Virus record (IMG/VR): IMGVR_UViG_3300036791_001038
Coordinates: 1-64,000 of that record
Reading direction: 5' to 3' (one strand)
Origin: a virus
Length of the DNA stretch: 64,000 bases
Made by a program: the position numbers and the translations under genes. Position 1 is the first letter of the stretch. Each line of letters begins with the position of its first letter. Shown here one piece after another: positions 2 to 51,230 of the stretch. The notes under the pieces were generated by a model. That model was not told where the DNA came from. It did not search any database and was given only the letters and a program-made list of their open reading frames with translations.

Positions 2-136
2 TGGACCGACCTCGTATCCGAGAGCGGCAAGCCATTTGAGTCACGGCGCATCAACCTGAAGGGCCTCAAGCCCCCCACCCCAGCCCGCTGGGCCAGCTTC
101 GGCTGGATGGTGGAGATCAACGGGGTGCTGGCATGA
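2..136 (+). CDS. C-terminal end of a truncated small gene, function unknown
   Basis: The reading frame enters from the left edge and ends at TGA 134-136, giving 44 residues rich in Trp, Pro and basic residues and ending NGVLA. The stop overlaps the next start in an ATGA junction, so the two genes are probably co-translated. Too little remains to assign a function. The frame is believed because codon use is typical of the window and the overlap style matches the operon further right. Confidence 0.55.
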   Translation, partial: WTDLVSESGKPFESRRINLKGLKPPTPARWASFGWMVEINGVLA

Positions 137-348: not shown

Positions 349-374
349 TTTCCTCTAGCCCAACCTGTTAAGCT
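345..374 (+). promoter_or_regulatory. Predicted SigA-like promoter
   Basis: TTGATT at 345-350, an 18-nt spacer and TAAGCT at 369-374, with an extended TG two bases before the -10. It resembles the promoters proposed at 2450-2478 and 4935-4963 (TG-N-TAA core). No protein gene follows on this strand before the 546-584 terminator, so it may drive the structured RNA described next. A start near 381 would, however, remove the first strand of that RNA's helix P1. Confidence 0.4.
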
Positions 375-534
375 GACCACCTTGACAGCCGATTTTTCAG
401 ATCCTCCGAGGCCGGGCGTAGTGGACCACCCGCCGGTCCCGGCAGAGGCGAGGTCCGCCCCTCCGCCCTGCCCCCCGGCCTCGGGGGAACCTCCGCTCCA
501 ACGGTGCTTTGTACTGTGGTGGTCATAGCGCCGT
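374..534 (+). ncRNA. Candidate structured RNA with a possible H-type pseudoknot
   Basis: No plausible protein is encoded here, but several long helices are visible. P1 pairs 374-381 with 518-525. P2 pairs 403-416 with 474-487 (14 bp, one wobble). Inside P2 are hairpins 423-427/435-439 and 441-453/460-472. A further helix pairs 501-508 with 527-534. P1 and this last helix interlock as an H-type pseudoknot with directly adjacent 3' strands. A terminator hairpin follows at 546-584. This is inferred by hand pairing, and GC-rich sequence folds easily, so comparative covariation would be needed. No known RNA family was recognised. Confidence 0.4.
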
Positions 535-545
535 TCGGGGCCGCC

Positions 546-584
546 AAACATCGCCGCCATCCTTCAAGGGGTGGCGGCGATGTT
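546..584. terminator. Bidirectional terminator between convergent transcription units
   Basis: A near-perfect stem of about 17 bp (AAACATCGCCGCCA against TGGCGGCGATGTTT, plus further pairs with one G-T wobble) closes a short loop at about 563-567. It is followed by TATATTT on the plus strand and lies 5 bp beyond the stop of the leftward gene 590-1084. It can serve both the rightward unit ending at 348 and the leftward pair. Confidence 0.75.
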
Positions 585-589
585 TATAT

Positions 590-1084
590 TTACGGCCCGG
601 TTTTGACGGGGCCAGACACGGCGTTGGCCAGCAGGCTCTGAGCCAGCTTGAACGAGTTCGACATCTGCTGGGCGGCGTGGGTCATGACCAGCTTGATCTG
701 GGCGTCAGCAGCCGGGTTGTGACCCCGCAGGGCCGGGTCGATCTCACAGCCGATGTCACGCATGAAGCGAGCGAAGGTGTCGGAGGTCAGCCATACCGCG
801 TGAGCGGCGTGGTTCTTCTCGATCACGGTCGGATGGGTGCCCGGCTTGGCCAGGATCTTCCAACGGGCCTTGGGGCCATAGCTCTCGCAGGCCACCACGT
901 ACCGGGTCCGTTTGCTGCCCTGCAGGCGGCGGTAGTCCTGCAGCCAGGTACTCATGTCCTCCACCGAGACGTTGACCATCTTGGCCAGGGTGGTGGCCCG
1001 GAACCCGGAGGGGTCGATGCCCCGGCGGCCGCGCATCGAGGTGATGTAGATGTCCAGCGCCCGGTCCACGATGTGGGGGGTCAC
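590..1084 (-). CDS. Hypothetical protein, possible DNA-binding partner of the upstream regulator (164 aa)
   Basis: It starts at GTG 1084, overlapping the stop of the upstream leftward gene as GTGA, which implies translational coupling. The longer frame to 1237 lies wholly within the neighbour's coding region and was not used. Residues about 20-70 (FRATTLAKMVNVS...WLQDYRRLQ...RYVVACESYGPKARWKI) read like a winged-helix or similar nucleic-acid-binding domain. The C-terminal half is helical and Ala/Gln rich. The pair is transcribed away from the small-gene operon. A regulatory role is inference. Confidence 0.65.
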   Translation of the reverse strand: MTPHIVDRALDIYITSMRGRRGIDPSGFRATTLAKMVNVSVEDMSTWLQDYRRLQGSKRTRYVVACESYGPKARWKILAKPGTHPTVIEKNHAAHAVWLTSDTFARFMRDIGCEIDPALRGHNPAADAQIKLVMTHAAQQMSNSFKLAQSLLANAVSGPVKTGP

Positions 1085-2183: not shown

Positions 2184-2453
2184 ATGGCCCAGGCCCTGGC
2201 CGCCCGGTTCTTCGATGACGAGCTTTGGGAGTGGAACCAGGTGGCCGACTGGCTGCTGGAGACCTACTTGCCCACCGAGGCCCGCCTGGGCCGTCTGAGA
2301 GCCCTCCTGGGCCTCCAGGGGGCCACCTACGTGACCTGGGAGGGTCCCGAGCCCGACGAGACCACCCAGATCATCCTGGACGGCCTGGGCATGCGTCTGG
2401 GCGTGCGTCGAAGCCATAGGCGCAACGAACGCGTGCTGCTCCTGGCGACTTGA
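2184..2453 (+). CDS. Hypothetical protein (89 aa)
   Basis: ATG 2184 is chosen because GCGAGGCGAG lies just before it; the earlier in-frame start at 2097 would translate the repeat-containing regulatory region. The product (FFDDELWEWNQVADWLLETY...GRLRALLGLQGATYVTW) is amphipathic with a Trp-rich first half and a basic C-terminus. It is the first rightward gene after the divergent region. Function unknown. Confidence 0.6.
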   Translation: MAQALAARFFDDELWEWNQVADWLLETYLPTEARLGRLRALLGLQGATYVTWEGPEPDETTQIILDGLGMRLGVRRSHRRNERVLLLAT

Positions 2454-2478
2454 CCGCTCTAAGGAAACCTGCTAACTT
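2450..2478 (+). promoter_or_regulatory. Predicted promoter for the DUF6011-like gene
   Basis: TTGACC (2450-2455), 17-nt spacer, TAACTT (2473-2478) with an extended TGC immediately upstream. It starts inside the last codons of the preceding gene. The predicted start near 2485 leaves a leader of about 35 nt before the preferred ATG at 2520. Confidence 0.55.
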
Positions 2479-2519
2479 GGGTGGTGATGCACAACGACCA
2501 CCACAGCGAGGTATCCCAG

Positions 2520-3236
2520 ATGAATCGCAGCCAGCTTCTCGAAGCCATGAACGCCAACAAGCCTGCTCCCCGCCCCCTGACCACCACCGAGCAGTCCGCC
2601 GCCGCGGGCTCCAAGTACGCCCGCCCCGACGTGGCCCGCCAGGCTGCCGCGGTGGCCCCTCAGCCCTCGGCCGTGACCGAGAAGCAGTCCAACTTCCTGC
2701 GGAAGCTCCTGACCGAGCGGGTGGGGATCACCGAGGCCGAGGACATCCGCAACGCCCTCAACCAGGCCCGCAGCGCCAAGACCCTGGACAAGGGCATGGC
2801 CTCCGAGTTCATCACCCGGCTGCTGGCCATCAAGCCCAACTCGGTGGTCCGCCAGGCCCCCATCTCCTCGGGCCTCCCCGGCCAGGACGGCACCCCGCCG
2901 CTGGCCAAGTCCGATGACGCCTGGAAGCGCCCGGACTGCGTGCCCGACGGCCAGTACGCATTGCGGGGCGAGGACGGGATCATCCGCTTCTACAGCGTCA
3001 ACACCAACGACGGGATCTGCTGGGTGGCCGTCCACGCCTCTGACGAGCGCCACAACATCAAGGGCCGCAGCCGCCACCAGATCCTCGACGCCATCGCCGC
3101 CGATCCCCGCTCCGCCGCCATCCTGTTCGGTCATGAGACCAACCACTGCGGGCGCTGCGGTCGGGAGCTTACCGACGAGGTCAGCCGGGCCAACGGGATC
3201 GGCCCCGTGTGTGCCAGGAAGGTTGGGTGGGCATGA
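2520..3236 (+). CDS. DUF6011-like zinc-ribbon protein (238 aa)
   Basis: The start at ATG 2520 has GCGAGG 8 nt upstream and lies downstream of the predicted promoter; the frame remains open to 2481 but that would lie upstream of the likely transcript start. The N-terminal third is Ala/Pro-rich. A middle helical region (EKQSNFLRKLLTERVGI...) is followed by a strand-rich part and a C-terminal ribbon HCGRCGRELTDEVS...GIGPVCARKVGW. That ribbon is the hallmark of DUF6011 proteins, which are common in actinophages and often attached to nucleic-acid proteins. It overlaps the next gene by ATGA. Biochemical role unknown. Confidence 0.75.
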   Translation: MNRSQLLEAMNANKPAPRPLTTTEQSAAAGSKYARPDVARQAAAVAPQPSAVTEKQSNFLRKLLTERVGITEAEDIRNALNQARSAKTLDKGMASEFITRLLAIKPNSVVRQAPISSGLPGQDGTPPLAKSDDAWKRPDCVPDGQYALRGEDGIIRFYSVNTNDGICWVAVHASDERHNIKGRSRHQILDAIAADPRSAAILFGHETNHCGRCGRELTDEVSRANGIGPVCARKVGWA

Positions 3237-4970: not shown

Positions 4971-5504
4971 GTGACCACCACCCATGTCCTTTATCCCGAT
5001 CGGGTCGTCCTGCGCTCCGGTCGCCTGGCCGATGTCGATGAGCGCGGCCGGGCCGAACTGGTGACCTGCCCCTGGCTGGTCCAGGTGCCCTCCGGCCATC
5101 CCGAGCCCGACTCCGAGGCCGACTGCTGGCTGACCATCCCCTGCGGGGCTCCGGCCTTCGCCATCGACGGTGACGCCGACGCCGGTTGGCGCTGCTCGAA
5201 CGGCCACCACCACTTCACCTACGGCTCCGCCCGCCAGCGGGCCGAGGAGCAGGCCGAGGCGGCCGTGGAGTATGCCGCCTCCTACGACCCCAATATCGCC
5301 CGCCGCCTGGACGACGGGGAGTCCTGGCAGGCCATCGCCGGGTATACCGACTCCGAGTTCGAGCGTGAGTTCGAGGCCGACGCCGAAGAGGAGCGCGAGG
5401 CCACCGAGGAGTACTACGAGCGCCAGGCCGAGGCCCGCCAGGAGGCCCGCCTGGACGCCCGCGACGAGGCCCGCGAGTGGGGCGGAGAGGACATCCCCTC
5501 ATGA
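4971..5504 (+). CDS. Acidic helical protein with Cys/His cluster (177 aa)
   Basis: GTG 4971 is preferred over the upstream TTG 4935, which falls within the predicted promoter. The N-terminal half has Cys and His residues at spacings suggesting a metal site (ELVTCPW, ADCWLTIPCG, WRCSNGHHH). The C-terminal half is a long charged helix (DSEFEREFEADAEEEREATE). It begins a run of ATGA-coupled genes. Function unknown. Confidence 0.65.
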   Translation: MTTTHVLYPDRVVLRSGRLADVDERGRAELVTCPWLVQVPSGHPEPDSEADCWLTIPCGAPAFAIDGDADAGWRCSNGHHHFTYGSARQRAEEQAEAAVEYAASYDPNIARRLDDGESWQAIAGYTDSEFEREFEADAEEEREATEEYYERQAEARQEARLDARDEAREWGGEDIPS

Positions 5505-6084: not shown

Positions 6085-6581
6085 TCACTACCGCCACCCG
6101 CCCCGAACGTGACGGCTGGGGCAACCGCCCCGACGGTTTCCGGCCCTTCTTCTGCAACGGCCGCCCGGACGGCTCCAACTACACCCTGACCATGCTCGAC
6201 GCCATGATCCACGCCTGCCAGTTCGCCCTGGGCGTGGACTACGACGGCCAGGATCCCGAGTGGCAGCAACTCTACGACTGGGCCGGACTGTGGCTGCCCA
6301 AGCTGCAGGCGGCCAAGGCGGCTCCGCCCTGCGACGAGAAGCTGGTGCCCGAGGCGCCCTGGATCCCCGCCGACAAGACGGCCCGCATGGGCCTCTACCA
6401 GGTGTGCGAGGACTTCGTGGAGTACGAGCATCAGCAGGCTGTTGTCGTCCGCAACGATTGGGGCCATCCCACCGGAGCCTACGAGTACGACGACAACGAA
6501 ACCTATTGGCTTGTTACCCTCTTAGAGGGCTCTTCCATCGTCCTAGATCCCGACCAGTTCAAGGAGCTAACCACCACATGA
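6081..6581 (+). CDS. Hypothetical acidic protein (166 aa)
   Basis: It starts at ATG 6081 in an ATGA overlap; the longer frame to 5718 is shadow. The product is acidic and aromatic (GVDYDGQDPEWQQLYDWAGLW) and ends with EYDDNETYWLVTLLEGS, a strand-rich segment. The codons near the 3' end are less GC-rich than the neighbours. No recognised family. Confidence 0.65.
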   Translation: MITTATRPERDGWGNRPDGFRPFFCNGRPDGSNYTLTMLDAMIHACQFALGVDYDGQDPEWQQLYDWAGLWLPKLQAAKAAPPCDEKLVPEAPWIPADKTARMGLYQVCEDFVEYEHQQAVVVRNDWGHPTGAYEYDDNETYWLVTLLEGSSIVLDPDQFKELTTT

Positions 6582-6823
6582 CCACCACCGAATCCACCAC
6601 CCCCAAAGAGCGTCATGCCTTCGGCCTTGACGTGGCCCGCAACGACCTGCAGGCCGGTGTCATCGCCCGGCCCACCGAGCGGTCCATGTCCGGCAACATC
6701 ATCCTCGAAGCCGGGCAGTCTCTGGCCTCGGGCGGCTGGCACAAGACCCTGCACATCGTGCTGACCCCCGACGAGGCGGCCGAGTTCCACGCCGCCCTGG
6801 GCCAGCTACTGGAGCAGTCATGA
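6578..6823 (+). CDS. Small hypothetical protein (81 aa)
   Basis: ATG 6578 overlaps the previous stop. It has a Thr-rich start, a short charged segment and an amphipathic C-terminus (KTLHIVLTPDEAAEFHAALG) resembling a strand followed by a helix. Coupled by ATGA to the gene at 6820. Function unknown. Confidence 0.6.
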   Translation: MTTTESTTPKERHAFGLDVARNDLQAGVIARPTERSMSGNIILEAGQSLASGGWHKTLHIVLTPDEAAEFHAALGQLLEQS

Positions 6824-11322: not shown

Positions 11323-11973
11323 GTGATCAAGTACGCCAGCCTGGAGATCCTCTCCTCCGAGTACGGCGGCGACGGCCCCATCCGCCGTCAGGCCCATCGC
11401 GCCGACTTCGCCTACGACCCCCGACCCGGCTTTCTCTACGTCCGGTCGCGGGCCATCTCCTCGCGAGTCAACGACAACTACGACGGGTTCCCTGCCGAGG
11501 AGATCGAGAAGGGTTACAAGTCCTTCATCGGCAAGCCTGTGTTCGTAAATCACGTCAATGACGACCACCGCCGGGCCAGGGGAGTGGTCATCGCGGCGGC
11601 TCTGCACCACGATGTCAATCCTAATGGTACGCCTGATACCTGGTGTGAAGTACTGATGGAAGTCGATGCTCATCGCTTCCCTAAGCTGGCTCAAGCTATT
11701 GTCCAGGGTCATATTGACAAGACATCGATGGGTGTAGACGTTGAGTATTCCATATGTTCAGCCTGTGGTAATAAGGCTACATCTCCTGCTGAATACTGTC
11801 GTCATATCCCACAACTCAAGGGCAGCAAGATTGTCAGGAGGAATGCAAAGACCGGTAGACCAGAGGAGACTTTGATCTATGAGACGTGCTATGGATTGAG
11901 TTTCTTCGAGAATAGTCTGCTCGTAGAAGATCCCGCCGATCCGACAGCATTTTTCCTTGGAGTTGACAAGCGT
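11323..11973 (+). other. Domain: prohead (capsid maturation) protease-like
   Basis: Residues 1-217. The signature SFIGKPVFVNHVNDDHRRARG, followed by LMEVDAHRFPKLAQAIVQGHIDKTSMGVDVEYSICSACGN and EYCRHI, resembles the head-maturation protease or core proteins of large myoviruses. The likely catalytic His and Ser are in FVNHVND and DKTSMG. Its place just upstream of scaffold and capsid genes agrees. The fusion to about 3,000 further residues is exceptional. Confidence 0.65.
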
Positions 11974-14900
11974 GGATTAGATATGAGTCCACACCACGCC
12001 TCGAAGGATCTGGTCGATCAAGCTCCAGGAGACGCCATAGTACATGGCCAGTTCAGCCCTGGTCAAAGAACTGGTTCGAATCTCGCGAACTTCGTCCTCG
12101 GTGAGCTTGGCGCGCCCATGCCAGATACCTCTGGATTGGCGGTCACGGGCGATCTTGTCGGCCATGTTGTCGATGTGGGTACCGACCACCCAGTGGGCGG
12201 GATTCTGGCAAGGCGGGTTGTCGCAGGTATGGCGGACGAACAGCCCATCTGGGATCGGGCCGACCAACTGTTCGTAACCGAAGCGATGGGCATAGGTCGA
12301 GCGACCGTTGACTCGGAGAGCGCCATATCCCTTGTTGGTGCAGCCCCAGGTCCAGGGCCAGCAGGCGTCAGGACCGCCGGAGCGATCAATCCTGGAGAGG
12401 TACCGCTCCATGTCGCCCACGATGACCAGCTTAAACGGTCTGGCCTGGGAGCCTTCGTGGCCAGTTCAGATGAAGAAGGCCCCCGCACCGGCCAGTTCGG
12501 GGACGATCATGCCCTGGTCAATGTCCACCAGGTCAAGTCGCGGCCCAACACCTACTACCTGCACAACCTGTGGGTGAACCCTGATCACCGCGATAAGGGC
12601 ATCGGCTCTCGTCTGATGAAGAGCATCACCGACGAGCATGATGCCAACGGCTCCACGCTGGCCTTGCACACTGATCAGCCTCGATTACAGGAATGGTACA
12701 AAGGCATGGGATTCGAGCCCAAGGAGCGTGATGTCTTCGGCCAGGTGATGGAGCGTCCACCGAGGACGGCTGGACTCAGAGCCTTCGTGGCCGCCAGTTC
12801 AGATGAAGACGACGACCTGTCCACCAAAAGCCCGGCCGAGATCGACGCCCGCCTGGGCGATCACCATACGAAGCTGTATGGCCACCAGGGTCGCCAGGCG
12901 TCGGCCCTGGAGCAGATGCACCACGCCGTGGGGGATCGCCAACAGGGCCGGGGCCAGGGCAAGTTCTGGCAGAAGTCCCACCAGGAGGTCCTCAACCACG
13001 ATCCCTCCACCCTCACCAACCCTCGCCTGGCCCGCGACTACGCCCGCAACCGGACGGCCTATGACTCGGCCGGGGAGGACGCCAAGACCGAGCAGGGCCA
13101 CATCAGCCGCTATGACAACGAGTTCCACAAGCGGGGTGGCTGGTCGAGGTTTTTTCTGGTCCCCGATGGACATATCCACTCCTCGATGCAATGCCACTCC
13201 TGTCGGCCCACCACTCCCTTTAGCTGGTTGCCCAACCTGTCCGGCAAGTCTGAGGGCGAGGCCGTTGAGCAGCACGGCCCGCACCTCTGCACCCATTGCT
13301 TCAAGTCCGCTCCCACCGAGTGGAAGCGGGATCCGGCCGAGACGCGCGCCGAGGAGAAGAAGAAGTCGGGTGAGTATTGCGAGGGCGGCAAGGCCAGCAG
13401 CTACCCCGACGCCGAGGAGCGCGCCCGGCGCAAGGCCACCCATCCGCAAGGCAAGGTCAAGCTAGAGCCCGGCGAGGCCATGTACACCGGCCAGCGGGGT
13501 GGCTACCAGGGCCGTTGCCCCACCTGCAAGACCATCCAAAAGGTCAAGAACTCCGGCGAGTTCTACCAGCACAAGCCGCCCGAGGTACCCAAGGAGGAGA
13601 AGCCCAAGGTCGAGCGGCCGGTGCTACCTGATCCTGGTAAGGGGCTCAAGACCCATCTGCGGCAGAAGCATCAGATGAATACCCATGATTTCGACTCGTA
13701 CCAGCAGTATCAACCGGATAAATCGCTGGATCAGATCCATAGTGATCTGCATGAGAAATACGATAACAATCAGCATGCACCGAACAATCACACCCATGGT
13801 GGGTCTGCGCCGCCTGCCACCACGGTCATGACCCCGCCCAGGGAAGGCTCCAGGAGGGGCCTAAGAGCCTTTGTAGGGGCTGATGCCTCGGGGATAACGG
13901 TGGCCGGTCTCGCGGTGGTGGCCCGCGACACCGGCCGGGTGCTGATGCTGCAGCGCCTGCTCGATGGTAAGGATCCGGCCGGGGGTACCTGGGAATGGCC
14001 AGGCGGTCATATCGGTCAGGACGAATCACCTATCGAGGGAGCCATCCGCGAGTGGAAGGAAGAAGTCGGTCAGCATCTCCCTGAGGGCCATGTAGGGGGC
14101 TCCTGGGACTCCAAGGGGATGTATCAGGGATTCGTGTACGTCATCCCCTCTGAGGACGACATCGAGGTCTACAGCGGCAAGCGACCGGTCACCAATCCCG
14201 ATGATCCCAAGGGCGACAATCCCGAAGCCGTGGCCTGGTGGGATCCCAAGGACCTGCCCGACATGCCCGCTCTGCGCCCTGAGTGCAAGACCACCGACTG
14301 GTCGCTGTTCAAGCCCGCTGCTATTGCGAAGGTGGCCGTCGAGGAGAAGCCCTCAGAGCCCTGGTATCACAGCGCCGACGACTATGAGGGCGCAGTAGGT
14401 GACCGTACTCATATCACCCGTAATGTGCAGATGGATCTACCCACCCATCTGGTCGCTCATATGCCCGGTGTGATGGATGAGCGTCCTGGCGAACACCGTA
14501 ACATGCAAGGTGATAAGTGGGAGGACTTCAAGAATGACATCTCTGCCAACGGCATCAAAAACCCGCTCTTTATCACGGTGGATCACGGCCAGCGACCCAG
14601 GCTGTCTGAGGGCAACCACCGCAGAGACGCGGCGATTGAGCTAGGCCTCAAGCACGTCCCGGCCCAGGTGCGCTACTACGGTCACGCCGAGCGGGACAGC
14701 GACCTGGAGGACCAGGCCCGCAAGTGGTGGACCCACAATCCCCAGCATCTGCCCAGAACCTCGGCTAGAGCGTCCAGGATCAAATGGGATCAGGTCGAAC
14801 AGGATTACGAACATTCAGGACCGAGTGATTACGGAGGTGCTTACTGGATAACCCCCTCCGGTAAGAACTTGAATGTCGGTGAATACCATTCCAATCTCTT

Positions 14901-17900
14901 CAAACATCCGGCCGTTGGTTACAATCCGAATGCTAAGCCGGAGTATGCCGATGAGGATTCCCGTCATGTGCTGGCTCAGGGTGGGGTGCGGATCATGCAT
15001 CTGCCCAACTCCGCCTATGGCAATCGCATAGCCGTCGAGCATCACCATCCTCTCACCGAGGGCCAACAGAAGACCCTGATCAGCTTCGTGCATCGCTCCC
15101 ATCCTGATTCCCTGGACTATGACGGCCCGAATGGCTATCGGCAGTTCGACTTTCCCACTGGGGCCGATGTCCGTAAGCATCTGTCCAAAGAGGCCGCCTA
15201 CGACCTCCTCGGTCCAGGCAAAGGCCACTACTTCGAGCCGGTGGAGGAGGGCAGCGACTGGTGCGCCGTCTGCGGTCACGATCGCCGGGTGACCAAGCAT
15301 CCCCTGCCCAAGCAAGCGGCCGCCGAGCGTCAATATCTCTATCACACTTCTCCCGTTCATAATCGAGCGAGTATTACCGAGAAGGGTCTGCTTCCTAATC
15401 AACCAGGTCATGAAGACGAACCTGAGCTTCCTAAGGGAGTCTATCTTGACTCTGATGAAAAGATGGCTCTCGATACCGGTAATGATTATGGAGAAGATGT
15501 ATGGAAGGTGGATGTCACTGGATTAAAACATCATGTTGATCCTTATTGGGAGGGAGTTGCTCATCGACCTAATACCAGTCATTACGTCAAAGGAGCCATC
15601 CCACCTCATCGTGTGACTCTACACCGGCCTGCATCATGGCATGAATGCTCTGATAAGTCTTGTCACCTTGCAAGGATCGGGCTGCGGGCCTTTGTGGCGC
15701 TGGTGGTCCCCAAGACCTTCTTTCATGGCACCACTGAAGAACTGCAGCCTGGAGATGTCCTGCATCCCGGCAATGAGATGGGGCTGAAGACACACCCTCA
15801 ACTGCACAAGTGGCGGGGGGATCATGTCTGGGCCACCCCCGAGGAGGCCGGGGCCTGGGGCTACTCCGAGCAGGCCGAAACCAGCCGGGGCACCCACCAC
15901 GTTTATGGACCAACGGTCGGTGATCGCCCCCGGCCTCGGGTCTATGAGGTCGAGCCCATGGGACCGGTGCAGAAGCGCCGTCGTCTGAGTCCCTTCGACC
16001 CCGAAGAATACACCATGCCCTCGGCCAGGGTCCTGCGCTCCATCGACATCCCCCACCCCGAGGTGCCGTTACCCACTCAGGGCAAGCCCTCCGGTGGGGG
16101 TATGCAGGGTCGTCTCCCCGGCGAGAAGAGTTGGGAGAACTGGAAGACCCTGGAGCCCGACGCGGCCGATCTCTCCGAGCATTGGGAACTGTCCCGGCGT
16201 CGTCATCCAGAGGCCTGGGCGGCGGGTGATAAGGAAGAGCCAGCCCCAGAGACCGATGAGCATCAGCAGAAGCTCTTCGCGGCTCGAATGGCCGCGCTCC
16301 GGGCCTTCATAGCCGTCAACAGTTCAGATGAAGTACCGCCACCCATGGGGGAGTCGCCCATCCCCGAGGGCCATGTGCGGCTGTTCCACCAGACCTCGGT
16401 GAAGCAGGCCGAGTCGGTGCGCCAGCACGGGCTGACCATGGAGCATGCTCGCGATGTCAGCGGGCCACGCGGCGTCTGGGCCAGTCATGGCACCCGTTTC
16501 TACGGCGAAGGCGATGAGCATGCCACCGTGGAGTTCCACGTCCCTTACGACGAGCTACGCGACACGGCCGGAGGTCAGTCCCCGCATCGGCATCAGCCTC
16601 AGGAGGACTGGGAGAAGAGTACTCACCACACCCTGATTATCCCCCGCTCTATCAAGCCGCATGAGATCTCCGCTATCCATCTGCCCTGGCACAATCGTTA
16701 TCACTACTTCCATGACAACGGCATGACTGATGATGTGAAGAAGGGTGAGTACGACAACCTGTCCGACATGAAGGACTACGGCCCGGCCATCGACAAGATC
16801 AAGCACGAAGCTCTGCGTCATTTGGCCATGCAAGCCGAGGACGAGGTACCGCCCCGGCTCGGGACCGCGCCCATCCCCGAGGACCACGTCCGGCTCTACC
16901 ACCACACCTGGTCAAGGAACGTTCCCGGCATCCGGGAGCATGGCCTGCTGGCCGAGATGGGCCAGGGCGACAGCGGCAAGGGCTACGGCAACGAGGCATC
17001 AGCGGGGGTATGGGCCGCCAGTCAGCATCCCGAGCCTGATCCCCAGAGTGACCGGCATGTGATCGAGTTCCACGCCCATCCAAGAGAGATCGATGTCAAC
17101 GGCCCCTCTCCTGGCCAGGACATCCATAAATGGCAGCAGGGCGATCACAACGTCCTGATGCGGGGCAGTGTGCCGAAAGAGAACATCCTGGCTATTCACG
17201 CCCCTTGGCATACCGCTTATCATCAGATCTCCGAGGATGCCCGCGACCGGGAGGATGTGAAAGGCGGCAAGCTGGACTGGGTCCACAACGATCCCAGCAT
17301 GAAGGAGATCAGCAAGGCCGTCCACAAGATCCAGTCCGAAGCCAAGAAGACCCGCAACACCGAGAAGCCTCAGCAATGCAACTGGTGCAAGCAGCCCGCC
17401 ACCAAGTCCATGCTGTGGGCCGAGGGTATGGGGTACATCCCCACCTGTGACAAGCATGAGGCAAAGACCCGTGACCACATCGAGAACACCAATGATGACG
17501 AGGTCGTTGCCATCCACCAGATCAAGCAGGGAGCCAAGCAGCCCTATATCGGCAAGGGCTGGTGGCTGACGCCCGAGGGCAAGAAGATCGGGGTCTACGA
17601 CCACTACGAGACCACTCCGGGGATGGCCCGGCAGATGATTCGTCCTCACATGGCCGAGAGTGGTCAGGTCCGGGTCCGTAGCTTCAACAATCAACTCAAC
17701 GTGCAAACGTCGCGGCCGTTCACCGATGCTCAGCGCCAGAGCTTGCTGCTGGATGCCGATAAGCATTCCCGCATGTTCGTGGACGTGCTACACCCCGACA
17801 CCGAGGAGTCCATCCACTCCGAGTCCGGTGGCCCCGAGGACGCCGATCGCATGCTGGCCCGAGCCCACCGGGCCGCCATACCCCACACGGCCGCCCTGAC

Positions 17901-20900
17901 TCTCCTGGCCGATCAGCCCTACGCCGGAGGTCACACCTTCCAGTTCATCAAGGCCACCCCCAAGGTGATGGGTGGTAGCTCCCTGCACGAACTGCGGGCC
18001 TATCCCGAGGGCGAGTCCAAGCGCTACTCCGGGTCGCTGCGATGGTCATACAAGTCTGGTGAGATTGCCGGTATCGACGTGGACAAGGACCAGCAGCGTC
18101 AGGGCCTGGCCACCGAGCTACTGGGCCGGGCACGCGATATCGCCGCCACCACCCGAGGGGTGATCGCTCCCAAGCACTCCGATCAACGCACCAACGAGGG
18201 AGAGGCTTGGGCGCGCTCGACCGGCGATCGGCTGCCCCGGCGGCTCACCGGACTGGGGGTGTTCGTGGCCGCTTTTGGACAACCACAGCTATTCGATCCC
18301 GGTAGTGGTGGCCATGAGCATCTACCCAATCCTCGGGGTGGGCTGGACTGGCATCACGGCACTCCGCATCACTTCGAGAGCTTCGAGGAGGAGCGCCCGG
18401 AAGAAGACGATCCCTATGGCGGGTATGACTTCGAGACCGGCGAGAAGTTCAAGCAGCCCCATTGGAACACCCACCTGGGCCAGCACTGGACCTCCCTGCC
18501 GGGCGTGGCCGAGCATTTCGCCAAGGGCCAGTACGGTCAGTATGGGGAAGGCAAGGGTCATGTCATCACCGCTAACCTGGGCGTAAAGCACCCCAAGGAC
18601 TACAAGCTCGAATCCCACATGGACAAGGAGGCCTTCGAGCATGCCTGGGACGGGCATGATCCCCACGATTACCACGATGAGTTCTGCCATAACCCGGAGC
18701 ATCGAGACGACCCCGACGAGGAGCATTTCGATGACGAGCCCTACCACTACAACGACCAGCATGAGCGCGGCGACGAGGTGGACCGCCAGGTCCAGGCCCG
18801 CTACCGGGACCGGGAGCAGCAGGGCGAGTGGCTGAGCCAGCATCCCGACTCGGGCTCCCTGGCCGAGAGCTTCAAGGACAAGGTCCGCCAGGAGGGTCAT
18901 GACGGCATCACCTACGGCAACGAGCTAGAGGGGCCGCACGGCCACCAGTGCGCCATCACCTTCGATGAGCATCAGATCCACAACCCCCGCCGCCGGGCTC
19001 TGGGCAAGCTGGCGGTCGAGGACTACGACACCCTGTACCACATCACCGATCAGCACCACTTCGCCCTGGACCCTGAGCATGCCCCCCAGGACAACGCCTT
19101 CGCCATCCAGGACCGCTCCCACTACAAGGGCCTATACGCGACCAAAGACCCTGACACCTGGCGGGCGCAGGGCTACCACCGGCCTTACGTGGCCGAACTG
19201 CACGTCCCCCATGGGCTGGCCCAGCAGGAGCGCTGGCACGGGGAGAGCTTCATTCCGGCCGAGCATTTCGACAAGGTCAAGGTCAACCGGGTCATCCCCT
19301 TCGATGCTCATCAGCGTGAGAAGTGGGGTGAGCCCGGCACCATCGAGAGCTACCACGGCACCCACTACCAGACCAACCAGCCGCTCAAGAAGAAGCCGGG
19401 CTGGGAGTCATCGGACTACTACGAGGCGGATGAGAACGAGCCTGCAACCAAGGACGTGCGCGACTTCACCCCGAAGGAACACACCCGTCATCTCAAGCGG
19501 CTGCGCGAGTACCTGCACCACGTCCAGGGTTGGGGCTGGAACGAGTTCAACCAGAAGCATGAGCATGTCGGCATAGGCGAGGACGAACAAGACGAAGAGG
19601 GCATGCCCATCCGGCGGGACCAGAAGGGCCAGCCCATGACCCGAGATCGCTATGCAGCCAAGACCGGGCCGATCTACTACCACGGCCATGGCCGGGGAGG
19701 AGCCCGAGCCGCGACCGGCGATCCCGAGTGGGACGACAACCTCTTCGTCAGCCACGATCCCGAGGTGGCCAAGCTGTACGGCCCCAAGCTGGATCGCATC
19801 CAGATGGCCCCCGACACCAAGGTGGCCCGCCATGAACACTGGCTGGGCGCGCAGAGGCCTGACATTGCCCTCAATCTCCTGCGTAAGGCCAAGGCTAAGA
19901 ACGCCGATGTGATCGAGTTCCACAAGCCTCATGACTTCGTCGGTCACATCATCCTGAACAAGGACAAGATCGTCAGCCGGGAGCCCTATGATCCCGGTCA
20001 TACCGCCATGGCCGATCGAGGCGACTACGGCATGGAGCATTCCCCCCACCTGGAGGGACCGGCCTTGCACGAACTGGGGCACAGCTATCCCGACATCTAC
20101 GACCATCCCGAGTACTACGGCTCCATGCATGAACGGCCCGGCCGGGAGTCAGCCCGCGCCCTGAAGAGGGCCAAGGGCATCGGCCCCGACGACCAGGTCA
20201 GCATCTACCGGGCCGCTCCGCACGGGGTCACCACCTTCAACCACGGCGACTGGGTCACCCTCTCCCCCAGCTACGCCCAGCAGCACAGCCGCCACCCCAC
20301 CGACGAGAGCCGGGACATGCCCATCTACAAGGCCCAGGTGGCGGCCAAGCACGTCCACTGGGACGAGAACGACATCAACGAGTTCGGCTACTCCGGCCCC
20401 GAGGTACCCGCCACCAAGCACCTACCGGGTGGTCCTGACGCGCCGCGCCTGGCTGCCTTCGTGGCCGCCCTGGACCCCGGCCAGGTCTCCGAGGCATCCC
20501 CGGAGGAGTTCCATCGCCGCTTCTCCGAGGCTATGGAGGGCAGCCCCTTCGTCCACCATGTGACCAACCACACTCCCGAGGAGATCCGCTCGGGCGGCAT
20601 GCGCCCGCTCACCACCAACGGTGGCGACACCGGGGTGCTGGTGCATGACCACGGCGACGGCCGTATCGAGGCCACCGGCCTGTACAACCGCTCCAAGGTC
20701 AAGGGCGCGGGGGTCGATCTGCTCAAGCATACCATGGAGCATCATGGCGTGAACTACGTCGAAGCGTATGGACCTAGACTTCCCCAGTTGTACCGACGAG
20801 CAGGCTTCCAGACCACCGAGAAATATCGCTTCGATCGTGAGCAGGCTAACCCTGGCTGGGATTTTCGCCAGTTCGATTCGCCTAGCTATCACATCATGCA

Positions 20901-21045
20901 CCCACGTAACACTCAGAAGTCTGGTAAGGTGATCTCATGGCCTTCGACCGCCAGCGTTCCATTCCTGTTCCCATCAACGAGCCTGAGCCCTCCGAGGGGG
21001 CTATCAGCCTTTGGGATGTTGACTGGGACGACCCCGAGCAGGTAG
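11323..21045 (+). CDS. Giant head-module polyprotein: prohead-protease-like N-terminus plus many enzyme-like modules (3,240 aa)
   Basis: GTG 11323 follows GAAGGGGTGAGGTG. In order, the chain holds: a protease-like domain (1-217), translated antisense of an HNH gene (about 219-363), GNAT (390-480), a zinc region (610-760), Nudix (855-996), ParB-like (1023-1133), a WITP module (1154-1286), ADP-ribosyltransferase(ART)-like (1336-1450), Arr-like (1461-1580), two related ART-like units (1667-1822, 1842-2000), a zinc knuckle and second WITP module (2018-2183), GNAT-like (2195-2305), ART-like units (2323-2556, 2568-2700, 2782-2893, 2905-3033) and a GNAT-like end (3053-3196). The motif LRAFVA recurs at 375, 485, 847, 1454, 1659, 2311 and 3043. 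I infer a packaged or processed effector chain. The last 36 codons overlap the next gene in another frame and may carry no selected sequence. Individual domain calls vary in certainty. Confidence 0.85.
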   Translation: MIKYASLEILSSEYGGDGPIRRQAHRADFAYDPRPGFLYVRSRAISSRVNDNYDGFPAEEIEKGYKSFIGKPVFVNHVNDDHRRARGVVIAAALHHDVNPNGTPDTWCEVLMEVDAHRFPKLAQAIVQGHIDKTSMGVDVEYSICSACGNKATSPAEYCRHIPQLKGSKIVRRNAKTGRPEETLIYETCYGLSFFENSLLVEDPADPTAFFLGVDKRGLDMSPHHASKDLVDQAPGDAIVHGQFSPGQRTGSNLANFVLGELGAPMPDTSGLAVTGDLVGHVVDVGTDHPVGGILARRVVAGMADEQPIWDRADQLFVTEAMGIGRATVDSESAISLVGAAPGPGPAGVRTAGAINPGEVPLHVAHDDQLKRSGLGAFVASSDEEGPRTGQFGDDHALVNVHQVKSRPNTYYLHNLWVNPDHRDKGIGSRLMKSITDEHDANGSTLALHTDQPRLQEWYKGMGFEPKERDVFGQVMERPPRTAGLRAFVAASSDEDDDLSTKSPAEIDARLGDHHTKLYGHQGRQASALEQMHHAVGDRQQGRGQGKFWQKSHQEVLNHDPSTLTNPRLARDYARNRTAYDSAGEDAKTEQGHISRYDNEFHKRGGWSRFFLVPDGHIHSSMQCHSCRPTTPFSWLPNLSGKSEGEAVEQHGPHLCTHCFKSAPTEWKRDPAETRAEEKKKSGEYCEGGKASSYPDAEERARRKATHPQGKVKLEPGEAMYTGQRGGYQGRCPTCKTIQKVKNSGEFYQHKPPEVPKEEKPKVERPVLPDPGKGLKTHLRQKHQMNTHDFDSYQQYQPDKSLDQIHSDLHEKYDNNQHAPNNHTHGGSAPPATTVMTPPREGSRRGLRAFVGADASGITVAGLAVVARDTGRVLMLQRLLDGKDPAGGTWEWPGGHIGQDESPIEGAIREWKEEVGQHLPEGHVGGSWDSKGMYQGFVYVIPSEDDIEVYSGKRPVTNPDDPKGDNPEAVAWWDPKDLPDMPALRPECKTTDWSLFKPAAIAKVAVEEKPSEPWYHSADDYEGAVGDRTHITRNVQMDLPTHLVAHMPGVMDERPGEHRNMQGDKWEDFKNDISANGIKNPLFITVDHGQRPRLSEGNHRRDAAIELGLKHVPAQVRYYGHAERDSDLEDQARKWWTHNPQHLPRTSARASRIKWDQVEQDYEHSGPSDYGGAYWITPSGKNLNVGEYHSNLFKHPAVGYNPNAKPEYADEDSRHVLAQGGVRIMHLPNSAYGNRIAVEHHHPLTEGQQKTLISFVHRSHPDSLDYDGPNGYRQFDFPTGADVRKHLSKEAAYDLLGPGKGHYFEPVEEGSDWCAVCGHDRRVTKHPLPKQAAAERQYLYHTSPVHNRASITEKGLLPNQPGHEDEPELPKGVYLDSDEKMALDTGNDYGEDVWKVDVTGLKHHVDPYWEGVAHRPNTSHYVKGAIPPHRVTLHRPASWHECSDKSCHLARIGLRAFVALVVPKTFFHGTTEELQPGDVLHPGNEMGLKTHPQLHKWRGDHVWATPEEAGAWGYSEQAETSRGTHHVYGPTVGDRPRPRVYEVEPMGPVQKRRRLSPFDPEEYTMPSARVLRSIDIPHPEVPLPTQGKPSGGGMQGRLPGEKSWENWKTLEPDAADLSEHWELSRRRHPEAWAAGDKEEPAPETDEHQQKLFAARMAALRAFIAVNSSDEVPPPMGESPIPEGHVRLFHQTSVKQAESVRQHGLTMEHARDVSGPRGVWASHGTRFYGEGDEHATVEFHVPYDELRDTAGGQSPHRHQPQEDWEKSTHHTLIIPRSIKPHEISAIHLPWHNRYHYFHDNGMTDDVKKGEYDNLSDMKDYGPAIDKIKHEALRHLAMQAEDEVPPRLGTAPIPEDHVRLYHHTWSRNVPGIREHGLLAEMGQGDSGKGYGNEASAGVWAASQHPEPDPQSDRHVIEFHAHPREIDVNGPSPGQDIHKWQQGDHNVLMRGSVPKENILAIHAPWHTAYHQISEDARDREDVKGGKLDWVHNDPSMKEISKAVHKIQSEAKKTRNTEKPQQCNWCKQPATKSMLWAEGMGYIPTCDKHEAKTRDHIENTNDDEVVAIHQIKQGAKQPYIGKGWWLTPEGKKIGVYDHYETTPGMARQMIRPHMAESGQVRVRSFNNQLNVQTSRPFTDAQRQSLLLDADKHSRMFVDVLHPDTEESIHSESGGPEDADRMLARAHRAAIPHTAALTLLADQPYAGGHTFQFIKATPKVMGGSSLHELRAYPEGESKRYSGSLRWSYKSGEIAGIDVDKDQQRQGLATELLGRARDIAATTRGVIAPKHSDQRTNEGEAWARSTGDRLPRRLTGLGVFVAAFGQPQLFDPGSGGHEHLPNPRGGLDWHHGTPHHFESFEEERPEEDDPYGGYDFETGEKFKQPHWNTHLGQHWTSLPGVAEHFAKGQYGQYGEGKGHVITANLGVKHPKDYKLESHMDKEAFEHAWDGHDPHDYHDEFCHNPEHRDDPDEEHFDDEPYHYNDQHERGDEVDRQVQARYRDREQQGEWLSQHPDSGSLAESFKDKVRQEGHDGITYGNELEGPHGHQCAITFDEHQIHNPRRRALGKLAVEDYDTLYHITDQHHFALDPEHAPQDNAFAIQDRSHYKGLYATKDPDTWRAQGYHRPYVAELHVPHGLAQQERWHGESFIPAEHFDKVKVNRVIPFDAHQREKWGEPGTIESYHGTHYQTNQPLKKKPGWESSDYYEADENEPATKDVRDFTPKEHTRHLKRLREYLHHVQGWGWNEFNQKHEHVGIGEDEQDEEGMPIRRDQKGQPMTRDRYAAKTGPIYYHGHGRGGARAATGDPEWDDNLFVSHDPEVAKLYGPKLDRIQMAPDTKVARHEHWLGAQRPDIALNLLRKAKAKNADVIEFHKPHDFVGHIILNKDKIVSREPYDPGHTAMADRGDYGMEHSPHLEGPALHELGHSYPDIYDHPEYYGSMHERPGRESARALKRAKGIGPDDQVSIYRAAPHGVTTFNHGDWVTLSPSYAQQHSRHPTDESRDMPIYKAQVAAKHVHWDENDINEFGYSGPEVPATKHLPGGPDAPRLAAFVAALDPGQVSEASPEEFHRRFSEAMEGSPFVHHVTNHTPEEIRSGGMRPLTTNGGDTGVLVHDHGDGRIEATGLYNRSKVKGAGVDLLKHTMEHHGVNYVEAYGPRLPQLYRRAGFQTTEKYRFDREQANPGWDFRQFDSPSYHIMHPRNTQKSGKVISWPSTASVPFLFPSTSLSPPRGLSAFGMLTGTTPSR
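11977..12411 (-). CDS. HNH homing endonuclease, antisense within the polyprotein gene (144 aa)
   Basis: ATG 12411 is preferred (GTG 12420 is possible). The HNH_3-type core is clear: YGALRVNGRSTYAHRFGYE, then FVRHTCDNPPCQNPAHWVVGTH and DNMADKIARDRQ. A C-terminal DNA-binding segment follows (LTEDEVREIRTSSLTRAELA, GVSWSLIDQILRGVVW). Family members nick or cut a target to promote their own spread. The gene sits precisely between the protease domain and the first LGAFVA motif. Its complement keeps the host frame open for about 147 codons. No good Shine-Dalgarno was seen upstream. Confidence 0.8.
   Translation of the reverse strand: MERYLSRIDRSGGPDACWPWTWGCTNKGYGALRVNGRSTYAHRFGYEQLVGPIPDGLFVRHTCDNPPCQNPAHWVVGTHIDNMADKIARDRQSRGIWHGRAKLTEDEVREIRTSSLTRAELAMYYGVSWSLIDQILRGVVWTHI
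12490..12765 (+). other. Domain: GNAT acetyltransferase-like
   Basis: Residues about 390-481. The order LHNLWVNPDHRDKGIGSRLM (acetyl-CoA binding motif RxxGIG), a following helix, then LALHTDQPRLQEWYKGMGF matches GNAT motifs A and B. The substrate is unknown. It is flanked by LGAFVA (12445) and LRAFVA (12775). Confidence 0.7.
13885..14310 (+). other. Domain: Nudix hydrolase
   Basis: Residues about 855-996. The Nudix box Gx5Ex7REUxEExGU is complete: G895 H I G Q D E901 ... R909 E910 W K E913 E914 V G916. The preceding strand VAGLAVVARDTGRVLMLQR and the following EDDIEVYSGKRPV...AVAWWDPKDLPDMPAL also fit. It would hydrolyse a nucleoside-diphosphate-linked substrate such as ADP-ribose or NADH. 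This is notable beside several ADP-ribosyltransferase-like modules. Confidence 0.85.
14389..14721 (+). other. Domain: ParB/sulfiredoxin-like
   Basis: Residues about 1023-1133. NISANGIKNPLFITVDHGQ...RLSEGNHRRDAAIELGLKHV follows the ParB N-terminal pattern (nGI..Pl.I....l..GnHR..Aa..lG...vp). These folds bind or hydrolyse nucleotides (CTP in ParB), and phage versions are common. Function in this context is unknown. Confidence 0.6.
15328..15660 (+). other. Domain: ADP-ribosyltransferase-like (YHTS type)
   Basis: Residues about 1336-1446. YLYHTSPVHNRASITEKGLL, then LPKGVYLDSDEKMALD and VWKVDVTGLKHHVDP fit the H-Y/S-strand pattern of small ART-fold enzymes (RNA 2'-phosphotransferase/PARP-like). 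GC content is lower than in the flanking modules. The activity is not proven by sequence. Confidence 0.45.
15703..16062 (+). other. Domain: rifampin ADP-ribosyltransferase (Arr)-like
   Basis: Residues about 1461-1580. FFHGTTEELQPGDVLHPGN (H1468-G-T), a long variable loop, WATPEEAGAWGYSE and RVYEVEPMGPVQ...PSARVLRSIDIP align with the Arr pattern (FYHGT..L.pGd.l.pG ... vYeVePtGp). Arr enzymes transfer ADP-ribose from NAD to rifampin; relatives may modify other targets. It is directly preceded by an LRAFVA motif. Confidence 0.65.
16321..17320 (+). other. Two tandem related ART-like domains
   Basis: Residues about 1667-1822 and 1842-2000. Both open with SPIPEGHVRLFHQTS / APIPEDHVRLYHHTW and continue with a GL helix, GVWASHG / GVWAASQ, VEFHVP / IEFHAH, and a closing IHLPWHNRYHY / IHAPWHTAYHQ. 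They clearly arose by duplication. The HxT-type start and strand order resemble ADP-ribosyltransferase folds, but no catalytic Glu is certain. Confidence 0.5.
17905..18240 (+). other. Domain: GNAT-like
   Basis: Residues about 2195-2306. SGSLRWSYKSGEIAGIDVDK followed by QQRQGLATELLGRARDIA is the motif-A pattern of GNAT acetyltransferases (QxxGLA). A short C-terminal strand follows before the next LGVFVA motif (18253). Confidence 0.6.
18289..20424 (+). other. Run of four ART-like modules
   Basis: Residues about 2323-2556 (WHHGTPHHF ... HDGITYGNELEG ... CAITFDEHQI), 2568-2700 (TLYHITDQHHF ... GLYATKDPDTW ... YVAELHVP), 2782-2893 (IYYHGHGRGG ... NLFVSHDPEVAKLYG) and 2905-3033 (VSIYRAAPHGV ... 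GDWVTLSPSYAQQH ... DINEFGYSG). The last matches a phage ART-type pattern (YRA, GDWVTLS, DINEFGY). Certainty differs: the fourth is strongest, the third weakest. Confidence 0.5.
20480..20910 (+). other. Domain: C-terminal GNAT-like
   Basis: Residues about 3053-3196. A strand pair around GVLVHDHGDGRIEATGLYN, an amphipathic helix VKGAGVDLLKHTMEHHGV and NYVEAYGPRLPQLYRRAGFQ fit the second half of a GNAT fold. The canonical acetyl-CoA loop is weak. Confidence 0.4.
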
Positions 21046-49754: not shown

Positions 49755-51230
49755 GTGTCCATCATTGATTTCACGCAGTACCAGCCTCCCGATGTATATA
49801 TCGAGGCTTTAGCTGCCCCCCTTGTTGGGGTCACTGGCATCGCTCCTGATGTCATCGGGATTGTTGGTCCAGCCCTCGGTTACAAAACCACCACCGAGAG
49901 CTATGTTCTGACCGATACCATTCCGGTCATACTGAATCAGTTTGGAGCCAATCCAGCCAGCGTAAGCGTTACCGATGTATCCGGGAATGCATTCCTTCTG
50001 ACCGACTATGTCACCACTGTGATCAATGGGCACACCCCGGCTCAGAACCAGGTCACGGTGGCCCGGTCCCCGACCTCGAACATCCTCAGCGGCCAGGTGG
50101 TCTACATCACCTACCAGTACACCGACGGGGACTACTACCTCCCGGCCACCTACACCGACTACCCCTCGGTGAAGAAGGACTGGGGCATCCCCCTCGACCT
50201 GACCACCAACGCCATCCTGTCCCCGCTGTCCCTGGCCGCCCAGTTGGCCTTCGTCAACGGGGCCAACACCATCATCATCTGCCCCACCCAGGATACCGGG
50301 GGCATTGCCACCCGCACCGGCCTGGCCGAGGCCTACAACACCATGGCCTCGATCGTCCCGCTGGACATCATCGTCCCGCTACCGGTGGGCATCAGCGGTA
50401 CTCCCGCCCTGCCGGGAGACACCATCAACGTCGGCCTGGACCTGGCTTCCTTCCTGAACGGTCAAGCCCAAGTGGGCATCTTCGGGGTGGGCCTGGTGGG
50501 CTACGACGCGGTCAACTCGGTCGGTCCCGACACCATCGCCCAGGGCATCTCCAGCTACCGCATCCAGGAACACTGGCCAAATCAGATGAACTACTTCAAC
50601 GGCACCAACAACGCCTCGTTCATCATCTCGGGCTACTACCTGGCCGCGGCCTGGGCCGGAGTACTGGCCTCTCTGCAACGCCAGATCCCGCTGACCAAGA
50701 AGAACGTCTCGGGCCTGTCGGGGATCCCGAACTCGGTCTTCACCACCATGACCATGGCCTACAAGAACCAGCTATCGGCGTCCGGGGTGGCCGTCACCGA
50801 GCAGGTGACCGGCGGGGGCCTGCAGATGCGCCACAGCGTCACCACCTCCACGGTGGCCATCACTAGCCGGGAGCTATCCATCATCCGGGCTGGCGACGGC
50901 ATGATCGAGATGATCGAGAACACCCTGCAGAACTCGGGCCTGATCGGCTCGGCCTTCACCCCTACCACCTTGGCCAACGTCAAGAGCATGGTCCAGGGAG
51001 CCCTGGAGGCCTTGCTCAGCCAGGGGCTCATCGTGGGCTACACCGCCCTCGGGGTGCAGCAGCAGATCACCAATCCGTTGGTGGTCCTGGTCCAGTTCCA
51101 GTACCAGCCTGCCTATCCCCTCAACTACATCGTCGTCCAGTACTCCATCGACACCACCACCGGGTCGGTCTCGACCGTCACCACGGCTCCCGATCCCACG
51201 GGTGGCTCCACGGGCAACGCCACCGGCTAG
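49755..51230 (+). CDS. Contractile tail sheath protein (491 aa)
   Basis: GTG 49755 follows AAGGGGGCG. The N-terminus (QYQPPDVYIEALAAPLVGVT ... DVIGIVGPALG) and the C-terminal region (SSYRIQEHWPNQMNYFNGTN ... FIISGYYLAAAWAGVLAS, SIIRAGDGMIEMIENTLQN ... SMVQGALEALLSQGLI) fit phage sheath proteins. Length is typical. It polymerises around the tail tube and contracts on infection. It establishes that this phage is a myovirus. Confidence 0.9.
   Translation: MSIIDFTQYQPPDVYIEALAAPLVGVTGIAPDVIGIVGPALGYKTTTESYVLTDTIPVILNQFGANPASVSVTDVSGNAFLLTDYVTTVINGHTPAQNQVTVARSPTSNILSGQVVYITYQYTDGDYYLPATYTDYPSVKKDWGIPLDLTTNAILSPLSLAAQLAFVNGANTIIICPTQDTGGIATRTGLAEAYNTMASIVPLDIIVPLPVGISGTPALPGDTINVGLDLASFLNGQAQVGIFGVGLVGYDAVNSVGPDTIAQGISSYRIQEHWPNQMNYFNGTNNASFIISGYYLAAAWAGVLASLQRQIPLTKKNVSGLSGIPNSVFTTMTMAYKNQLSASGVAVTEQVTGGGLQMRHSVTTSTVAITSRELSIIRAGDGMIEMIENTLQNSGLIGSAFTPTTLANVKSMVQGALEALLSQGLIVGYTALGVQQQITNPLVVLVQFQYQPAYPLNYIVVQYSIDTTTGSVSTVTTAPDPTGGSTGNATG

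Follow-up and report, generated by a model that had tools for sequence, protein, structure and literature searches.

A candidate small RNA of a large actinophage, with a hairpin loop complementary to an element at the starts of many non-structural phage genes

We describe a candidate small-RNA gene in what appears to be a large phage of Actinobacteria. It lies at positions 381-592 of the window, by which we mean the first 64 kb of an IMG/VR virus record of 77,232 bases (the contig), and judged from its sequence this stretch is best read as a small-RNA gene with a predicted transcript of ~210 nt. We consider it rather probable that this transcript is a trans-acting antisense RNA directed against a start-associated element that is common to many non-structural phage messages. 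A phage regulatory small RNA had already been suggested in the first-pass annotation of this DNA, and the suggestion gains weight from a promoter, a terminator, the lack of a protein, a compensated hairpin and conserved complementarity to phage leaders. The major capsid protein of the phage (24447-25439) shows 55-57% identity to large Mycobacterium and Gordonia phages, for example Myrna.

A structured, non-coding stretch with its own promoter and terminator

Positions 345-592 of the window are non-coding and contain a promoter, a strong hairpin and an intrinsic terminator (Table 1); the neighbours are a short plus-strand gene (133-348) and two minus-strand genes (590-1084 and 1081-1824). The earlier statement that the stretch holds no credible protein is borne out by codon usage: the open reading frames inside the RNA region score between -0.1 and -0.4 per codon, whereas the median gene of the phage scores +0.30, and third-position G+C is ~0.66, as compared with 0.89-0.90 in the flanking genes. 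A small protein on either strand, including the frame MTTTVQ... that runs on the minus strand from 526, is rejected on the codon scores.

The helices drawn by hand in the first-pass annotation are present in the sequence, as is the strong terminator that it placed behind them. The plus strand folds with a z score of -7.8 relative to shuffles when the terminator is included and of -4.65 without it, the corresponding value for the minus strand without the terminator being -2.15. H1, H2, H3 and the terminator each fold better than shuffled sequences, and the top structured windows of the whole contig are the three that start at 441, 481 and 521, the terminator being included. No Rfam family reaches its gathering threshold anywhere in the window; the best sub-threshold match is Scr1601, at 17.7 bits versus the 100 needed.

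Table 1. Features of the candidate small-RNA gene and its predicted targets, in window coordinates
Feature	Positions	Strand	Remarks
Promoter P1	345..374	+	TTGATT - 18 nt - TAAGCT, extended -10 (ACCTGTTAAGCT); recurrent class
Small RNA gene (predicted transcript)	381..592	+	start 379-385, end near 590; non-coding, structured
H1 inverted repeat	365..388 (365-372/381-388)	+	overlaps -10; beats shuffles; absent from G040
H2 branched hairpin	402..488 (stem 402-416/474-488)	+	z -4.25; phage-specific, absent from G040
H3 hairpin	495..541 (495-508/527-541)	+	z -3.8; in G040 loop identical, stem compensated
Putative antisense loop of H3	510..526	+	510-524 (UGUACUGUGGUGGUC) same in G040; 514-526 predicted to pair with targets
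Intrinsic terminator	546..592	+	18-bp stem 546-563/568-585, then UAUAUUUA; z -8.2 (546-585)
Promoter P2 of gene D operon	2450..2478	+	P1 class
Main predicted target GACCACCACAG	2496..2506	+	gene D leader, adjoins Shine-Dalgarno GCGAGG; kept in G040
Gene D	2520..3236	+	DUF6011 / phrog_636 family; first gene behind P2; 71% identical in G040
Predicted secondary target	4971..4981	+	start GTGACCACCAC, 10 nt complementary
Predicted target	6578..6588	+	start ATGACCACCAC, 11 nt complementary

What had been noted as a promoter-like sequence at the 5' end turns out to match a recurrent promoter of the phage. In P1 the -10 hexamer (369-374) is preceded by TG, and the 77 kb contain three exact copies of the 12-mer ACCTGYTAASYT, each of them with TTGA at promoter distance. 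A slightly wider pattern yields a fourth member of the class at 74864, the -10 of which ends 6 nt 5' of the helicase start codon at 74899. The consensus of the class is TTGnnn, 17 nt, CTGCTAAnnT, from which P1 departs in its spacer of 18 and in a leader that is without the element described below. The class is also found in relatives of the phage, and the copy at 73689 (P3) is conserved in the relative G001 despite the divergence of the surrounding DNA. A search with the pattern of promoter plus inverted repeat gave no match.

A homologue with an unchanged loop and a compensated stem

The only long relative found, the 157-kb G040, was reached via another conserved RNA of the contig, at 73.2 kb. 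In G040 the RNA lies after the gene whose end occupies window 2-135 and before gene D, and both of these flanking genes are 71% identical over their aligned parts. The G040 RNA has a promoter-like sequence (TTGATT-16-TAGGAT), a hairpin that reads CCTCAGCGG-AA-TGTACTGTGGTGGTC-TGA-CCGCTGAGG (fold z -5.0) and a strong terminator that ends in ACATTTTTT.

The 15-nt loop is unchanged between the two phages, and the stem that carries it has diverged with its pairing intact: four of nine pairs differ in both nucleotides and one in a single nucleotide, all 17 cells pair, and controls in which the alignment was slid give at most one double change. In the two sequences that are certain members of the family, the seed is thus conserved and the stem compensated.

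Other searches for homologues were less productive. The three neighbouring proteins gave no usable match in IMG/VR or the phage collection, one weak match in Rhodococcus phage Finch being non-syntenic, and DNA similarity of the RNA region to phages and related IMG/VR records was confined to short chance matches. A covariance model of 393-542 found no match in ~2.6 Mb of related phages, a result explained by the dominance of the unconserved H2 in the model and by the position of G040 outside the searched set. Perfect matches to 17-mers and 20-mers from around the loop fell in unrelated DNA or antisense to the starts of other genes, and were rejected. A candidate third member, L005:5507-5590, lies directly 3' of the major capsid gene (93% protein identity) and shows CUGUGGUGGUCC in a hairpin loop within a terminator-like stem; its contig is too short for a check of targets.

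A hairpin loop complementary to initiation regions

Perfect 11-nt complements of the H3 loop sequence UUGUACUGUGGUGGUCAU are present at only three other sites of the contig, all of which are initiation regions on the sense strand: the leader of gene D and the starts of the genes at 6578 and 74899, the latter being the helicase gene. The gene D site adjoins the Shine-Dalgarno sequence in both phages, and its complementarity is the longest of all in G040 (12 nt) and the joint longest here (11 nt). Both this site and that of the gene at 6578 are mostly unpaired in their own messages. An antisense match of this kind was reached by none of 5,000 shuffled loops and by 1-2 of the 8,000 segments drawn from the genome. 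The tested region had, however, been extended further upstream once one site was known, and we therefore also quote the stricter, earlier window, in which the chance is 0.1-0.4%. The energy of the loop-target duplexes on the contig is not extreme relative to shuffled loops. The sequence TGACCACCAC occurs six times on the contig (five without the RNA's own complement) versus 0.9 expected, and is commoner than in related phages. The complementarity of this presumably exposed seed to initiation regions encoded elsewhere goes beyond chance.

The leader of P3 on this contig has no match to the loop within 45 nt of the -10, and for the single-stranded 5' part of the RNA (384-401) there is no similar group of targets. 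Loop and targets were not found to co-vary between the two phages, swapped loops giving equal totals, so the evidence consists in the conservation of loop and targets, not in their co-change.

A leader element shared by one promoter class

The same complementarity extends over most of a promoter class in G040. Its 14 members there are followed, in 13 cases, by ACCACCA or CCACCAC within 40 nt (the ACCACCAC element), which random 40-mers hold in ~2% of cases; on this contig the element follows two of the four class promoters. Most of the G040 sites have the appearance of leaderless starts, for example ATGACCACCAC or ATGCAGACCACCAC. At least 8 nt of perfect complement to the G040 loop are found in 12 of the 14 leaders, a number that no control attained among 3,000 shuffled loops and 3,000 genomic 20-mers. 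Single controls did reach 11 of the 14, the element being simple in sequence.

The element in gene D reads Asp-His-His, not Thr-Thr, and behind some class promoters a very short frame, or none at all, begins at the element by inspection; it therefore seems to be the nucleotides, and not the amino acids, that are conserved. The element may also serve a separate function in the translation of leaderless messages. As the capsid and tail genes (~11 to 73 kb of the contig) are without a promoter of this class, the genes behind class promoters are non-structural, and from phage biology they would be expected to be early.

Proposed mode of action

As a small antisense RNA, the predicted transcript would be initiated at P1 and end at its own terminator. 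The H3 loop CUGUGGUGGUC, presenting GUGGUGGUC, would pair in trans with GACCACCAC, which messages from class promoters share in their leader or their first codons. Depending on the message, pairing would cover the start codon, the opening codons (where the message appears to be leaderless) or, in gene D, the Shine-Dalgarno region; with the initiation region covered, ribosome entry would most likely be blocked and translation repressed, and the non-structural gene set would be lowered together. We infer the production of the RNA, its pairing in the cell, the early character of the promoters and the sign of the effect, for which the position of the pairing makes repression the most likely; protection of the 5' end of the message is an alternative effect that the same pairing might have.

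A broader form of this proposal, which we put forward tentatively and hold to be possible rather than probable, is a phage-wide RNA regulon, in which one small RNA and an element on nearly every class message would make up a switch over a (probably early) gene programme. Transcripts that read through from upstream would also carry a copy of the target (374-381) able to mask the loop, and the activity of the RNA would then depend on the promoter from which it was made.

Alternative explanations

Several other readings of the same stretch have to be weighed. The RNA could be a structural or protein-binding one, perhaps a decoy for a protein of the phage or of its host, with the loop as the protein site and the match to the leaders either incidental or due to the same protein. 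Such a role would account for the fact that the 15 identical loop nucleotides exceed the part that pairs with most targets, and for the strong structure of H2. However, the orientation is antisense, the leaders hold the complement of the loop and not the loop sequence itself, and the complementarity to the gene D leader is kept in both phages, all of which makes a protein site unlikely.

It is also conceivable that there is no separate RNA, and that tandem hairpins and a terminator form the structured 3' end of the upstream message. The upstream gene ends at 348, and only a weak terminator-like hairpin precedes the strong one. Nevertheless, the RNA has its own promoter, of a recurrent class, and in G040 the upstream gene is a different one (gene A is missing), yet the promoter-like sequence, the hairpin and the terminator are all kept; we regard this explanation as quite improbable.

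The first-pass annotation described interlocking helices, by which a compact pseudoknotted RNA would form through the pairing of 374-381 with 518-525 while 501-508 pairs with 527-534. The strands 374-381 (TGACCACC) and 518-525 (GGTGGTCA) are perfect complements, the helix 501-508/527-534 pairs with one G-U, and the interlocking helix amounts to a contact of the H1 loop, which supplies the 5' strand, with the H3 loop. A contact of 7 pairs between loops 373-380 and 509-526 arose in only 71 of 20,000 shuffles (~0.4%), and if the RNA is an antisense RNA, then H1 and the match of its loop to H3 would have to be put down to coincidence. H1 folds well, is weakly terminator-like for read-through from the upstream gene, and might allow a pseudoknot in transcripts that enter from there.

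The location of the 5' strand tells against this structure, since it overlaps the end of the -10 and the discriminator, before or at the predicted transcription start. At the usual spacing from a -10, transcription from P1 starts at ~379-385, which would leave 374-381 absent, or nearly so, from the RNA, and H1 probably lies mostly outside it. Moreover, an 8-bp Watson-Crick helix somewhere in the RNA region is expected in 35% of shuffles, and the syntenic G040 RNA lacks H1, H2 and the kissing partner, so that the two interlocking helices are not both conserved. Compensatory change had been proposed as the check on these helices: in the relative, 374-381/518-525 is lost without compensation, whereas 501-508/527-534 is kept with it. 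A pseudoknot is not supported and strikes us as very improbable; on sequence grounds, 518-525 is better explained as part of an exposed antisense loop.

That GACCACCAC is instead a DNA element (an operator or transcription signal) behind the promoters, with the loop as a copy in inverse orientation, is barely credible, for although the element stands behind nearly every class promoter and GACCACC lies immediately 3' of the P1 -10, its offset from the -10 ranges from 6 to 33 nt, and a DNA site needs no compensated RNA stem.

Other features of the phage and its relatives

The second, larger non-coding RNA (contig 73217-73579, L003:15218-15580, ~340-365 nt) lies outside the window. It has homologues at L121:7459-7797 (-) and, by pattern, at L204:644-692 and L206:783-831 (-), shows strong structure in two phages (z scores of -4.5 and -3.4) at ~67% DNA likeness, ends in a terminator-like hairpin and has no Rfam match. 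Also outside the window, at contig 73689-73830 (L003:15690-15824), P3 is followed by a leader that forms one long hairpin (GGAGAGCCCUG...CAGGGCUCUCC, z -3.3); P3 itself is kept in G040 as well as in G001, and the leader hairpin is absent from G001. L131 (-), from the further relative G022, has at ~9732 of the reverse complement a promoter-like sequence, then ~170 nt of non-coding, structured DNA, a terminator-like hairpin and a stretch that resembles, by eye, a tRNA gene; this could be a small RNA of G022 with no relation to the present one.

Within the window, a frame of 3,240 codons 5' of the capsid gene (11323-21045) has enzyme-like segments between repeated motifs of the LRAFVA/LGAFVA type, and its product resembles a polyprotein that is cleaved at these motifs. 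At 2030-2135, where two genes diverge, short direct repeats of the TGTTGGATGGTGTCGGGCGGTGTTGGGCGG type form a possible operator or iteron-like array. The tRNA-Leu (gag) that ARAGORN reports at 50028-50123 (-) is antisense within a well-scoring gene (49755-51230), and is probably a false positive.

Relation to known phage RNAs and start-associated sequences

The candidate RNA bears some likeness to the c4 antisense RNA of bacteriophages P1 and P7, which blocks translation by pairing around the ribosome binding site and whose complementary sequences are thought to lie in loops (PMC12197685). In both cases a phage RNA would carry the complementary sequence in a loop, and here too pairing around the ribosome binding site is predicted. 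However, c4 has one target (the ant mRNA) and belongs to temperate enterobacterial phages, whereas the loop described here matches an element of many leaders. The c4 target is an antirepressor message that lies further along its own operon; the foremost candidate target here is gene D, which encodes a DUF6011 protein and stands behind its own promoter. Rfam gives no match.

Cluster K mycobacteriophages have Start-Associated Sequences, for which the authors left it open whether the partner is an RNA or a protein (PMC3203893). These sequences are similar to the present element in being short repeats at gene starts, in their restriction to non-structural genes and in their conservation at the nucleotide level. 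The Cluster K sequence is GGGATAGGAGCCC and lies 5' of the start codon, whereas ACCACCAC, the element seen behind the class promoters here, follows the -10 and is mostly at or after the start codon. Unlike the Cluster K sequences, the element of this phage is accompanied by a complementary candidate RNA.

Abundant, unexplained non-coding RNAs of Cluster A (L5-like) mycobacteriophages and of Rhodococcus phage WC1 have been measured by RNA-seq, and in L5 also by Northern blot; the sections of these reports considered here propose no antisense targets for them (PMC5712189, PMC10986025). They share with the present RNA their origin in actinophages, although ours is predicted only and comes from a different kind of phage. 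In the part of the literature covered, no phage RNA antisense to an element common to a promoter class is described.

Small RNAs of actinophages are thus known without functions, and repeated start-associated sequences without a binding partner. In this phage and its relative, a candidate RNA matches a repeated start element by complementarity, and both are conserved, which provides a testable model in which one RNA would control many phage genes.
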